From positions 1 through 37,063 of the IMG/VR virus record IMGVR_UViG_3300021952_000015: a stretch of 37,063 nt of DNA. One strand, 5' to 3'. Shown here piece by piece: positions 1,142-25,661 of this stretch (positions are counted from its first letter, which is position 1; every line of letters begins with the position of its first letter). The notes beneath the pieces are model-generated. The model ran no database searches. It was given only the letters and a program-made list of their open reading frames with translations, and was not told where the DNA came from. The position numbers and the translations under genes were made by a program. This DNA is from a virus.

Positions 1142-1855
1142 TTAGGTGGTGGGCAGGAGGTGTAGCTGAAAGGTGGGTTGAGCTTGGGTACGAGGGCCGT
1201 GGGCGATGTCGAGCATGAGAGCTGCGCCTACGTGGCGTTCAACGGCTTCAGCCCATAGCCAGCTGGCTTGGCGTTGGCTGCGTGCGACGACGTGGATACC
1301 TGGGGTGAGGGTGGGTGCAGCAGGGACGCCGTAGCTGCCGGTGCGTCGGATAGCGGGCAGGACTTCATGGGTGACCCAGCGCTTGAAGGCCTTGGCCTCG
1401 GGCTTACGGCTGCCGAGGATGAGGGAGTAGAGGCCAGGCTCGTTGACGGTGGTCATGGACTGCTGGCCACCAGGGGTTGGAGTAGAGCTGACGCCCTTCT
1501 CGTCATCGTCGAGGCGGCCCACTGCCTTGTGTGTATCCGGAAGGTCCAATACAGCGCACACGTCAGCAGCCACAAACCACGTGACGCCGTGCTCGTCGGT
1601 GGTCACTCGAATCTGACGGCCTTGGTACGCAAAGGGGGCGAGAGCGGCCACATCCTGATGCTCCCTCCAGGCGGGCGGGAGTTCATCGTCGGCGTTGATG
1701 ACGGCTGGCTGTGCCACAAGGGCAGCAGCCTTGCGCCGCTGGCGGAAGGCGTGTTGGTTGCAGGCATTGCTGCACCACTTGGCGTTGATGGTCATGGACG
1801 GGAACAGCAGGCCGCAGCACTGGCAGCGCAGCTGATGACGCTCGCGTCGGGTCAT
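1142..1855 (-). CDS. Zinc-finger/Bro-N domain antirepressor-like protein
   Basis: A 237-residue two-part protein. Residues 11-32 carry a four-cysteine zinc finger (C11-x2-C14, C28-x3-C32; WCSNAC) followed by a basic HAFRQRRK segment, typical of small DNA-binding zinc modules. Residues about 75-170 match the Bro-N family: IRVTTDEHGVTWFVAADVC, VGRLDDDEKG, VNEPGLYSLILGSRKPEAK and FKRWVTHEVLPAIRRTGSYG are its conserved stretches. Bro-N proteins in temperate phages often act as antirepressors, so a role in the lysis/lysogeny switch is inferred. The C-terminal tail contains QLHLL, which loosely fits a clamp-binding pentapeptide. A 310-nt hairpin-rich leader separates the gene from its probable promoter. 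Family assignment is firm; the antirepressor role is inference. Confidence 0.85.
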   Translation of the reverse strand: MTRRERHQLRCQCCGLLFPSMTINAKWCSNACNQHAFRQRRKAAALVAQPAVINADDELPPAWREHQDVAALAPFAYQGRQIRVTTDEHGVTWFVAADVCAVLDLPDTHKAVGRLDDDEKGVSSTPTPGGQQSMTTVNEPGLYSLILGSRKPEAKAFKRWVTHEVLPAIRRTGSYGVPAAPTLTPGIHVVARSQRQASWLWAEAVERHVGAALMLDIAHGPRTQAQPTFQLHLLPTT

Positions 1856-2008: not shown

Positions 2009-2167
2009 TGCCAGATCCCAGACGCAGGAAAGGGCCAGCCGAAGCCAGCCCTCTCCCTACCAGGCCTCCGATGCGGTTCCAGACCAGGCCCAGAAAACCC
2101 AGTCACCGCGTCCATCCTTGCGGGTAGGACCGACCCGGCAGGGCCAGCCTAGAGGCCCTGTGGCTTA

Positions 2168-2197
2168 ACCCTAGCAATGCGGATGTGAAAGCGCACC
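2168..2197 (-). promoter_or_regulatory. Conserved 30-bp promoter-like element (copy D)
   Basis: On the minus strand: box GGTGCG (2192-2197), an 18-nt spacer containing CACATCCGCATTGC, then the -10-like TAGGGT (2168-2173). The spacer core and spacing match the copies at 5595, 11269, 23399 and 23774. It points at the Bro-N gene, 312 nt downstream. Confidence 0.6.
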
Positions 2198-5594: not shown

Positions 5595-5624
5595 GGTGTC
5601 AATGTGCATCCGCATTGCTAGGGT
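5595..5624 (+). promoter_or_regulatory. Conserved 30-bp promoter-like element (copy A)
   Basis: Box GGTGTC (5595-5600), an 18-nt spacer ending in TGCATCCGCATTGC, then TAGGGT (5619-5624). It shares the long GGTGTCAATGTGCATCCGC stretch with copy B. Read on the other strand it contains TTGACACC, so it may serve both the plus-strand helicases and the minus-strand regulator. The leader to the first helicase start is about 190 nt and holds only a doubtful Arg/Pro-rich frame (5602-5826) that would overlap the helicase start as ATGA. Confidence 0.65.
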
Positions 5625-5822
5625 GAGCGGGCCACTGCCGCTAAAGCTCCGCTCCAAGGTCACGCCAACCACTGCCCGGCCCAGGCGGTGGGTTGCAGCT
5701 GGCCTCTGGCCTGATCACTGGACCCGTCGCGGTCTGCCGCTGGCGCCACGGTCGTCGTACCTGCATGGGCGGCAGCAAGCGGGGCAGCGGTGGTGGCACC
5801 CCATTGACATGACGCCGCAGCC

Positions 5823-11268: not shown

Positions 11269-11298
11269 GGTGCAGGTTTGCATCCGCATTGCTAGGAT
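11269..11298 (+). promoter_or_regulatory. Conserved 30-bp promoter-like element (copy C)
   Basis: Box GGTGCA (11269-11274), an 18-nt spacer containing TTTGCATCCGCATTGC, then TAGGAT (11293-11298). A start of transcription about 7 nt further would give a leader of about 20 nt before the RecT-like ATG at 11326. Upstream bases GGGAAAGC are shared with copy B (GGCAAAGC). Confidence 0.7.
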
Positions 11299-11325
11299 GG
11301 CACAAGCCACCGCAAACCGCTACTG

Positions 11326-12218: not shown

Positions 12219-12669
12219 GAACGAACTGATCGCCGCTGTGCTTCGTGCCAGCCAGCACCGCTTCATTGGCCGCCTGGCCCGTGACCCTGAGATGCGCTAC
12301 TTCGAGTCGGGCAAGAGCGTTTGCAATGTCCGCATCCTGATCAACCGCCCCGGCGCCAAACGCGACGACGGGCAAGAGCCGGACGGCTTCAAGTTGGAGC
12401 TGTGGAACGACCTTGCCACGTCATTTGCTGATGCACACCGCAAGGGCGACCTGTGCGATGTGAGCGGCCGGGTGAAGAGTGAGAGCTGGGAAGACCGCAC
12501 TACCGGCGAAACCCGAACGGGGTTGGTGGTGATGGTGGACAGCTGGCAGCCGGTAGGCGGCAATGCTCCTGCTGCACCAGCCAAGCCAGCACCGCAGGCC
12601 GCTGCAGCCAAGCCAGCGCAGGACTGGAACAGCAACTGGGAAGGCGATGACGAGGAGGCACCCTTTTGA
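12217..12669 (+). CDS. ssb: Single-stranded DNA-binding protein (SSB)
   Basis: A 150-residue OB-fold SSB. The N-terminal core shows FIGRLARDPEMRYFESGKSV, then NVRILINRP and FKLELWNDLA, the expected SSB order. A Pro/Ala-rich linker (NAPAAPAKPAPQAAAAKPAQ) leads to an acidic tip ending DDEEAPF, the standard C-terminal peptide that recruits partner proteins. ATG 12217 overlaps the conserved element; GTG 12238 would give a 143-residue protein beginning directly before the OB fold and is a serious alternative. It should coat ssDNA for replication and for the RecT-like annealer encoded upstream. Confidence 0.95.
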   Translation: MNELIAAVLRASQHRFIGRLARDPEMRYFESGKSVCNVRILINRPGAKRDDGQEPDGFKLELWNDLATSFADAHRKGDLCDVSGRVKSESWEDRTTGETRTGLVVMVDSWQPVGGNAPAAPAKPAPQAAAAKPAQDWNSNWEGDDEEAPF

Positions 12670-23374: not shown

Positions 23375-23398
23375 GGCTATGGCGTGATGGCCAGCCGC

Positions 23399-23428
23399 AC
23401 CATAGCAATGCGGATGCAAAACTGCATC
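23399..23428 (-). promoter_or_regulatory. Conserved 30-bp promoter-like element (copy E)
   Basis: On the minus strand: GATGCA (23423-23428), an 18-nt spacer containing TTTTGCATCCGCATTGC, and TATGGT (23399-23404). Predicted transcription would begin about 18 nt before the 60-aa gene, leading the Gp157 operon. Confidence 0.65.
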
Positions 23429-23773: not shown

Positions 23774-23803
23774 GGTGTCAATGTGCATCCGCACCGCTAT
23801 GGT
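23774..23803 (+). promoter_or_regulatory. Conserved 30-bp promoter-like element (copy B)
   Basis: GGTGTC (23774-23779), an 18-nt spacer containing AATGTGCATCCGCACCGC, and TATGGT (23798-23803). The sigma gene starts at 23819, giving a leader of about 9-15 nt. The complementary strand reads TTGACACCGCTTTGCCGC toward the RHH gene. Confidence 0.65.
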
Positions 23804-23818
23804 GCAGCCGATCGACGG

Positions 23819-24706
23819 ATGCCCATGGCCGAACCACTCGACTGGTTGATGCAGCAAAGCCGCGCCTATCCGCTGCTGACGACTGAACAGGAGATCACGC
23901 TGAGCCGCGACGTTCAGGCCTGGCTGGCGATCAAGGACCTGGCCACGCCCACGGCCAAACAGCGAGCGATCCAGCGCCGTGGCAAGCGGGCATGGGACCG
24001 GTTCTTCCTGTCCAACATTCGACTGGTGGTGCTGATTGCCAAGCGCCATACCAAGCGTGCCGAGCCACACCTCACCGTTGAGGACCTGGTGCAGGAAGGA
24101 TTGATTGGCCTGCAGCGGGCCATCACCAAATTCGACGCCTCACGTGGGTACAAGTTCAGCACCTACGCGTTCAACTGGATACGGCAGAGCATCAACAGGG
24201 CGATTGAGAGCCAGGCGCGGATGATCCGCCTCCCGTGCCACAACCTGACCTTATTGCGAAAGGCATCCATCTATTGCGACGAGCAGGTCATGAAGACCGG
24301 CCGGAAGCCGCAGCTAGTTGAGATTGCTGAGCATGTCGGCTGCAACATGGAAACGCTGAAAGCGACGCTGGCTCATGCGCAACCGGCGATCAGCCTGGAC
24401 CAGAACCTGCGCAGCGACAGCGGTAACCGTGGCAGCGAGGCGTCCACGTACCTAGATCAGGTCGCTGCTGAAGCTACAGACAGCAGCTTCATGGATGAGC
24501 ACGGCGACCTACTGCAAAGCAGCGTTGCAATCCTGCAGCAGCTGGACCCGATGGATCGGATGATCATCCGTGAGCGGTACCTGCAAGGCAAGCCGACCAC
24601 GTTACGAGCGATTGGTGCATCGCTTGGCGTGAGCCGTGAGCGAATCCGTCAGCGTGAACGAAGAGCATTGATGCGGATGCGCAATCAACTCAACTGCGCC
24701 GCGTGA
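23819..24706 (+). CDS. Sigma-70-family RNA polymerase sigma factor 1
   Basis: A 295-residue sigma factor. Region 1.2-like DWLMQQSRAYPLLTTEQEIT; region 2 from FFLSNIRLVVLIAKRH through LTVEDLVQEGLIGLQRAITK to YKFSTYAFNWIRQSINRAIE, which covers core binding and -10 recognition; region 3 (GRKPQLVEIAEHVGCNMETL); region 4 ends with a canonical HTH, TLRAIGASLGVSRERIRQRE. Related to cyanobacterial group 2 sigma factors. Start ATG 23819 (or 23825) follows copy B closely. It probably redirects host RNA polymerase to phage promoters and could be self-regulated through copy B. Confidence 0.93.
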   Translation: MPMAEPLDWLMQQSRAYPLLTTEQEITLSRDVQAWLAIKDLATPTAKQRAIQRRGKRAWDRFFLSNIRLVVLIAKRHTKRAEPHLTVEDLVQEGLIGLQRAITKFDASRGYKFSTYAFNWIRQSINRAIESQARMIRLPCHNLTLLRKASIYCDEQVMKTGRKPQLVEIAEHVGCNMETLKATLAHAQPAISLDQNLRSDSGNRGSEASTYLDQVAAEATDSSFMDEHGDLLQSSVAILQQLDPMDRMIIRERYLQGKPTTLRAIGASLGVSRERIRQRERRALMRMRNQLNCAA

Positions 24707-24710
24707 TGCC

Positions 24711-25661
24711 ATGGCACCGCCATCTGGACTGAGTTGGTGGCTTGATCAGATCGGCCGCATCCCGCTGCTTACCCCTGCTGAGGAGATCGAGCTAGGCAAT
24801 CAGGTGCAAGCTTGGCTGAACCATCCGGGATTCCCAGATAGTTGCCCGCCTGGTATCCGTCGCCGTGGCAAGCGGGCTAAGGATCGGTTTGTGAAGGGAA
24901 ACCTACGGCTTGCAGTGGCGTATGTGTCAAAGCACTGCCACCGCATGGCCAAGGACCACAGCATTGATGATCTGGTGCAGGCCGCGAACGAGGGCTTGAT
25001 CAGAGCTGTCGAGCGGTTTGATCCCACGAGGGGGTACAGGTTCTCGACCTATGCCTACTGGTGGATCCGGCAGGCGGTGGGCCATTGGGCTGACCATCAC
25101 ACCAGGCTGGTCGCCATTCCTGGCAGCCACAGCCAGCACCTGGGCAAACTCAATGCGATCCGCAGACGACTGGCGTTGGAGCTAGGCCGTGATCCAACAC
25201 GCGAGGAGTTGACGGCAGAGCTCGGCGTGAGCGAACGGGTATTTGATCAGTTGCTGGTGAATGCCAAGCCTGTGGCCAGTCTCGATCAGGTGATCAGTGA
25301 CGACGGGCTAGAGCTAGGTGATGTGGTGGCCTGTTGGGACACCGAGCCCGAGGAGCATGAGGCCCAGGACGAGCGACGCGAGCAGGCAGAGCAGCTGCGC
25401 GAGCTGATGGCGACGTTGCCAAGCCGTGATCAGATGCTGCTGTCGATGGCCTGGGGATTGGATGGGCCAGCGCTGGAGCGCTCCGAGATCGCTGAGCAGC
25501 TGGGGATGAAGCCTGCACGAGTTGATGGCCGGCTGCGATACCTACAGGCGCAGCTGCAGGCGATGCAGACAATCAGGGATGTGCTGCCATCGAAGCGGCC
25601 GGTAATCAGGCCGGTGGAGCCGATGGGGGTGACGGAGCAGCTGAGCTTGTTTGCGGCGTAG
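24711..25661 (+). CDS. Sigma-70-family sigma factor 2 with C-terminal clamp-binding motif
   Basis: A 316-residue sigma factor located 4 nt after the first. Region 1.2: LSWWLDQIGRIPLLTPAEEI; region 2: KGNLRLAVAYVSKHC, DLVQAANEGLIRAVERFDPT and GYRFSTYAYWWIRQAVGHWA; region 3: GRDPTREELTAELGVSERVF. Region 4 is divergent (LERSEIAEQLGMKPARVDGR), so -35 recognition should differ from factor 1. After region 4 comes a Pro-rich linker (PSKRPVIRPVEPMGVTE) and then QLSLF at residues 310-314, the consensus bacterial beta-clamp-binding pentapeptide, two residues from the end. This suggests contact with the sliding clamp and replication-coupled transcription; the motif is visible, the function inferred. Confidence 0.92.
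   Translation: MAPPSGLSWWLDQIGRIPLLTPAEEIELGNQVQAWLNHPGFPDSCPPGIRRRGKRAKDRFVKGNLRLAVAYVSKHCHRMAKDHSIDDLVQAANEGLIRAVERFDPTRGYRFSTYAYWWIRQAVGHWADHHTRLVAIPGSHSQHLGKLNAIRRRLALELGRDPTREELTAELGVSERVFDQLLVNAKPVASLDQVISDDGLELGDVVACWDTEPEEHEAQDERREQAEQLRELMATLPSRDQMLLSMAWGLDGPALERSEIAEQLGMKPARVDGRLRYLQAQLQAMQTIRDVLPSKRPVIRPVEPMGVTEQLSLFAA

Follow-up and report, generated by a model that had tools for sequence, protein, structure and literature searches.

The sigma factor gene and its protein

The window considered here is the whole stretch of 37,063 nucleotides taken from the IMG/VR virus record IMGVR_UViG_3300021952_000015, and is DNA of a cyanobacterial virus. Its plus strand carries, at 24711-25661, a gene of the sigma-70 family, recognized through its translation, Pfam and PHROG 351. 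The product is a protein of 316 residues with a C-terminal motif resembling those that bind the bacterial sliding clamp, and its nearest folds in the PDB are primary and group-2 sigma factors. Pfam matches region 1.2 (residues 11-35, 24741-24815; PF00140, 1.6e-8), region 2 (residues 61-123, 24891-25079; PF04542, 1.5e-16) and region 3 (residues 143-213, 25137-25349; PF04539, 3.8e-13). Region 4 has no Pfam match, and is represented by a degenerate domain (residues 238-291, 25422-25583) that keeps a helical, helix-turn-helix (HTH) fold. Behind it lies a disordered tail rich in proline and basic residues (residues 292-316, 25584-25658), with the terminus ...PSKRPVIRPVEPMGVTEQLSLFAA. The final residues are EQLSLFAA, of which Q310 to F314 form QLSLF (25638-25652), a predicted beta-clamp-binding motif by consensus match and by conservation. 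By its domain matches the protein is a divergent member of the sigma-70 family, and the missing canonical region 4 does not shut it out.

The AlphaFold2 model, for which 47 relatives served as alignment input, is helical and confident in the core, including the HTH-like C-terminal domain (238-291). The tail (292-316) has a predicted local distance difference test (pLDDT) score < 50; QLSLF therefore lies outside the folded part and, as in clamp-binding proteins, sits accessible in a flexible tail. An earlier note on this DNA had described a sigma factor ending in EQLSLFAA, in which residues 310-314, QLSLF, close a flexible, proline-rich linker outside region 4; the translation, the Pfam regions and the model agree with this description.

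The terminal motif and chance

Over the 46 likely genes of the window, the pattern QL[SD]LF would be expected about 0.0004 times within 10 residues of the C-terminus, and about 0.014 times in the likely proteome as a whole. The sole other exact match in the six frames of the window, at 12488 on the minus strand, lies antisense to the single-stranded DNA-binding protein (SSB) gene, 58 residues before a stop. The string alone can thus occur accidentally, and evolutionary conservation is stronger evidence against chance than the statistics of the window.

Four further viral scans gathered 87 non-redundant phage sigma factors (80% clusters). A terminal QL.L is present in 15 of the 87, against 1.3 expected from shuffled tails, and 0 of 2000 shuffles reach 15. 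Of the scrambled control motifs, LQ.L, LL.Q and EL.L do not exceed expectation, and L.LQ and AL.L exceed it mildly. Among 1354 non-sigma open reading frames on the same contigs, 11 end in QL.L. A chance origin of the motif, put to the test with composition, shuffled tails, scrambled motifs and the non-sigma background, is strongly disfavoured. Judged from the tail sequences, the terminal QLSLF of the window sigma factor is not chance.

Conservation across relatives and the clade

The relatives at 87-93% identity (L003, L004, L005) have the same EQLSLFAA terminus. Loss of the motif in close homologues, the result by which the earlier note had proposed to judge its own reading, was looked for, and the motif is kept there. 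At 57-67% identity, all relatives read to the stop, including the freshwater isolate S-LBS1, end, or nearly end, in a QLxL-like element (in the form QLSFW in L020 and L031), behind a linker that is rich in proline and arginine and varies in length and sequence. In the 31-member alignment A2, conservation reaches 90% or more at the Q, L and L of QLxL, but not in the adjoining tail. Conservation in homologues, a mark of clamp-binding proteins, is thus present, and is weaker in the S-LBS1-like group.

A tree built on the first 270 residues, with the tail excluded, places the window sigma factor in a 26-row clade of non-redundant phage sigma factors (Shimodaira-Hasegawa-like approximate likelihood ratio test, SH-aLRT, 95). 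Motifs were scored in the last 20 residues, a strict match being one of the two canonical clamp motifs, the pentapeptide Q-phi-x-[L/M]-[F/L] or the hexapeptide Q-phi-x-[L/M]-x-[F/L] (PMC11139829). A loose clamp motif is found in 16 of the 26 clade members and in 1 of the 62 other phage sigma factors, and the strict motif in 8/26 against 0/62 (Fisher 2e-5), with 7/1354 in the non-sigma background. Within the clade, pentapeptides (QLSLF, QLALF, QLTLL, QLSLL, QLELL) exchange with hexapeptides (QLALPL, QLPLDL, QLSLTL). Divergent members from two scans made after the statistics carry QMTLL, QLSLTL, QIELRL and QLQLAL, and a basic-linker tail with a terminal GQLVLV. Such an alternation of both beta-clamp motif classes would not be expected of a tail with another purpose.

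The host cyanobacterial sigma factors and the rpsD4 sigma factors of phages S-CBS1 and S-CBS3, all with a canonical region 4, have no motif, unlike the window sigma factor; L430, whose tail alone could be read among the phage-record tblastn matches L430-L432, likewise has a canonical region 4 and no motif. Prophage copies were also sought in cyanobacterial genomes, which gave one 61% relative (L083, on a contig of a Synechococcaceae metagenome-assembled genome), the rest of the sample being host or lower-identity sigma factors.

Other tails are of interest in themselves. The S-LBS1-like group (L009-L034 of alignment A2) has an internal near-copy, VQLVLVAV, right after region 4, with about 30 residues from there to the terminal QLxL; the window sigma factor has no such copy. 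A beta-hairpin of the two QLxL copies in this group was considered and rejected, as AlphaFold2 shows no strands there, at low confidence. In L036 and L039 a basic stretch is followed by the terminus LQPSFW or IQPSFW; together with the QLSFW of L020 and L031, these may be aromatic forms of the same motif. In a separate clade of phage sigma factors (L049, L050, L052, L057, L071, L341, L351, L362), a basic linker leads into a different conserved tail, SSSL(T/I)WGW(G/S).

Erosion of region 4

All 31 members of alignment A2 match the Pfam models of regions 2 and 3, while 4 of the 31, per model, match region 4. In place of a recognition helix of the SRERIRQ type, the window sigma factor reads MKPARVDGRLRYLQ where the host sigma factors carry SRERVRQLEAKAL. 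A canonical region 4 with a helix that reads the -35 element is not found in the window sigma factor, but the helical fold remains. The region 4 of the clade is eroded at the positions that usually contact the -35 element.

The host clamp as the presumed partner

Clamp and polymerase genes were searched in 10 records, namely the window, six longer contigs of relatives, and the complete S-LBS1, S-CBS1 and S-CBS3, and the positive controls worked. PF00712 (DnaN-type clamp), PF00476 (DNA polymerase A) and PF07733 (Pol III alpha) have no match in any of the 10, and a phage-encoded clamp or polymerase of these families was rejected on this result. The annotations of S-LBS1, S-CBS1 and S-CBS3 hold no T4-type clamp; the T4-type clamp families were not searched. 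The earlier note had seen no clamp gene in the window, and this now extends to the longer relatives and to the three named phages.

The replication genes in the window encode a primase-type protein, two helicases, a RecT-like annealing protein and SSB. Because no phage clamp or replicative polymerase was found, these phages plausibly replicate with the host Pol III, by which host clamps would be left on the phage DNA. The same negative result makes the host DnaN the likely partner of the tail. Picocyanobacterial DnaN is canonical; its alignment with bacterial clamps of known structure is good and takes in the ATDGHRLA and C-terminal MPV segments, which line the protein-binding pocket. In the host DnaE, a QxxLF motif, GQGNLF, stands at the usual internal site. 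At the level of sequence, the reading of the tail as a host-clamp-binding motif is well supported; its bacterial type, as first suggested in the earlier note, is supported by deep-clade conservation, the alternating motif classes and the absence of a phage clamp from the records searched.

A strict match also stands at the end of the anti-repressor (Ant) protein (1142-1855, minus strand), whose terminus is QLHLLPTT, with QLHLL kept in two related contigs (G001 and G002). This protein may be a second client of the clamp, or the match may be chance.

Genome setting

Directly upstream lies a second, canonical sigma factor gene (23828-24706, plus strand, start codon inferred), with regions 2, 3 and 4, an intact RERIRQ and no clamp motif. 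It stops 4 nucleotides before the gene of the clamp-motif sigma factor. The closest relatives of the window carry such a pair as well, and with it these phages may run an early-to-late sigma cascade. The tandem pair is found only in the window, G001 and G002, and beside none of the other clamp-motif sigma factors.

Repeat analysis places a promoter-like repeat just upstream of the two-sigma operon (23784-23804, plus strand), with further copies at 5605-5625 (+), 11279-11299 (+), 23398-23418 (-) and about 2167-2187 (-). The repeat has the core TGCATCCGCATTGCTAGGGTG, an extended -10 like TGCTANGGT and a conserved spacer; it is kept in G001 and G002, and lies mainly at early or regulatory genes. 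Its 4 best copies compare with 0 expected in shuffles. The window is an incomplete phage genome: no terminase, portal or major capsid gene is seen in it, and about 9 kb at one end of the contigs G001 and G002 has no counterpart there.

Proposed mechanism and alternatives

In the mechanism proposed, sigma regions 1.2 to 3 would recruit the host RNA polymerase core, and region 2 would melt promoters. The residues of region 4 that read the -35 element being largely lost, the motif in the flexible tail would dock in the protein-binding pocket of host DnaN left on the phage DNA by host Pol III. The clamp tether would stand in for the lost -35 contact and steer the holoenzyme to replicating phage DNA, and phage genes, probably late or structural ones, would be transcribed while the genome is copied. 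Late genes are the natural target because the sigma gene is the last of the early module, which runs rightward, and the structural module runs leftward towards it.

The steps differ in how firmly they can be held. The tail probably binds DnaN, transcription is somewhat more probably than not activated through the clamp, and for late genes as the targets the chances are about even. The role in late transcription is a good, testable hypothesis. Overall, we favour, with modest confidence, a sigma factor that is tethered to the host beta clamp and ties the transcription of phage genes, probably the late ones, to replication, like T4 gp55 in function. The broader proposition, for which the balance is level, is that a clade of sigma factors of cyanobacterial viruses evolved replication-coupled transcription independently of T4, with host DnaN as the activator and a tether in the sigma factor itself replacing -35 recognition.

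Several points weigh against this proposal. The sequences in the shuffle tests and p-values are kin, by which independence is overstated and the p-values are too optimistic. The S-LBS1-like sister group, whose tail is QLxLx[V/I], has V as the final residue of the motif (QLVLEV, QLALAV, QLRLQV); this lies outside the strict consensus, and clamp affinity may be weak or lost there. One clade member, L293, has no recognisable motif, three (L036, L046, L345) have a poor match only, and L443-L445, kin of a clade member, have termini without it. A late promoter was looked for and not found. The motif goes with the decay of region 4 in raw numbers (Mann-Whitney p = 0.017), but with relatedness accounted for the link is weak (7 independent pairs, p about 0.5). 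Loss of the -35 contact and gain of a clamp tether would form a coherent exchange, reminiscent of T4; given the weak link after the correction for kinship, this exchange stays an interpretation.

The tail might instead grip the host clamp for another end, such as holding RNA polymerase or the sigma factor near forks, competing for the clamp with Pol III or repair, or controlling the sigma factor as in Hda-DnaA. The whole of the clamp-motif evidence fits this equally, and transposases, too, reach the host clamp by C-terminal QLxLF motifs, for purposes other than transcription (PMC4549789). We nevertheless regard it as unlikely, as the motif is fused to a sigma factor otherwise intact (1.2-3), which a dedicated clamp inhibitor would not need, and the degenerate region 4 leaves a deficit in promoter affinity that a tether could fill, as in T4 gp55.

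Less likely again is that the conserved tail docks elsewhere, on the RNA polymerase beta flap, an anti-sigma factor or a protease, hydrophobic ends in AA being like C-terminal ClpX degrons. Many tails do terminate in VA or AA (LFAA, EVAA, ASAA), and the S-LBS1 group has QLxLxV in place of the strict motif, together with the internal VQLVLVAV. However, it is QLxL that is conserved and not the -AA (EQLALI, EQLELL, QLALFGPLE, QLALPLV), the window protein lacks the internal copy, AlphaFold2 pairs no beta strands between the copies, and the alternation of QLxLF with QLxLPL fits the clamp pocket specifically. A chance match kept by shared ancestry in a functionless hydrophobic tail has the antisense QLSLF in its favour, but is highly improbable in view of the conservation inside an unconserved tail, the clade-wide enrichment and the recurrence in members fetched later.

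If sigma-clamp coupling is true, the use of a replication clamp in transcription would be general, having arisen independently of T4 in a clade of small cyanobacterial phages, and feasible with a host clamp. DnaN could then serve transcription initiation, and initiation factors would join the clamp clients. The system would have the merit of resting on one protein and of being easily assayed.

Comparison with known systems

Among bacterial beta-clamp binders, PolC of B. subtilis uses QLSLF itself, and QLSLPL is the tight-binding motif of Hda (PMC12309361). These proteins, with Pol II, IV and V, share with the window sigma factor the same motif classes in disordered tails (PMC12309361, PMC11139829). 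Transposases of the IS1634 type, which belong to mobile elements, reach the host clamp through C-terminal motifs like QLxLF (PMC4549789); they resemble the window sigma factor in motif use, but differ in enzyme and purpose. The closest isolate homologue is gp33 of S-LBS1 (60% identity), whose gene likewise stands at the end of the early module and faces the late module; the word clamp is absent from the S-LBS1 paper. A 2024 review of the clamp lists no transcription initiation factor among its binders, with 0 occurrences of "sigma factor" (PMC11139829), and the open-licence literature searched yielded no description of a clamp-binding sigma factor outside T4-type phages; the earlier note had known of no well-described sigma-70-family factor with the canonical pentapeptide.

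In T4, late transcription is coupled to replication by the late sigma factor gp55, gp33 and the sliding clamp gp45 (PMC2988020, PMC7892883); gp55 lacks region 4, with the clamp lying upstream (PMC7892883). The window sigma factor is like gp55 in having sigma region 2 and a C-terminal clamp-binding epitope, and would share with it the coupling of late transcription to replication. The epitopes differ, that of gp55 being acidic and hydrophobic, of T4 type, and that of the window sigma factor belonging to the bacterial beta-clamp class. T4 encodes its own trimeric clamp, loader and coactivator gp33, whereas no phage clamp was found here, and gp55 is without region 4, whereas the window sigma factor keeps a folded region-4-like HTH (238-291) in the same protein. 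Lacking both the absence of region 4 and a phage-encoded clamp, the window sigma factor is not a member of the gp55 family. What it suggests is a form of clamp-activated transcription akin to that of T4, but run with the clamp of the host.
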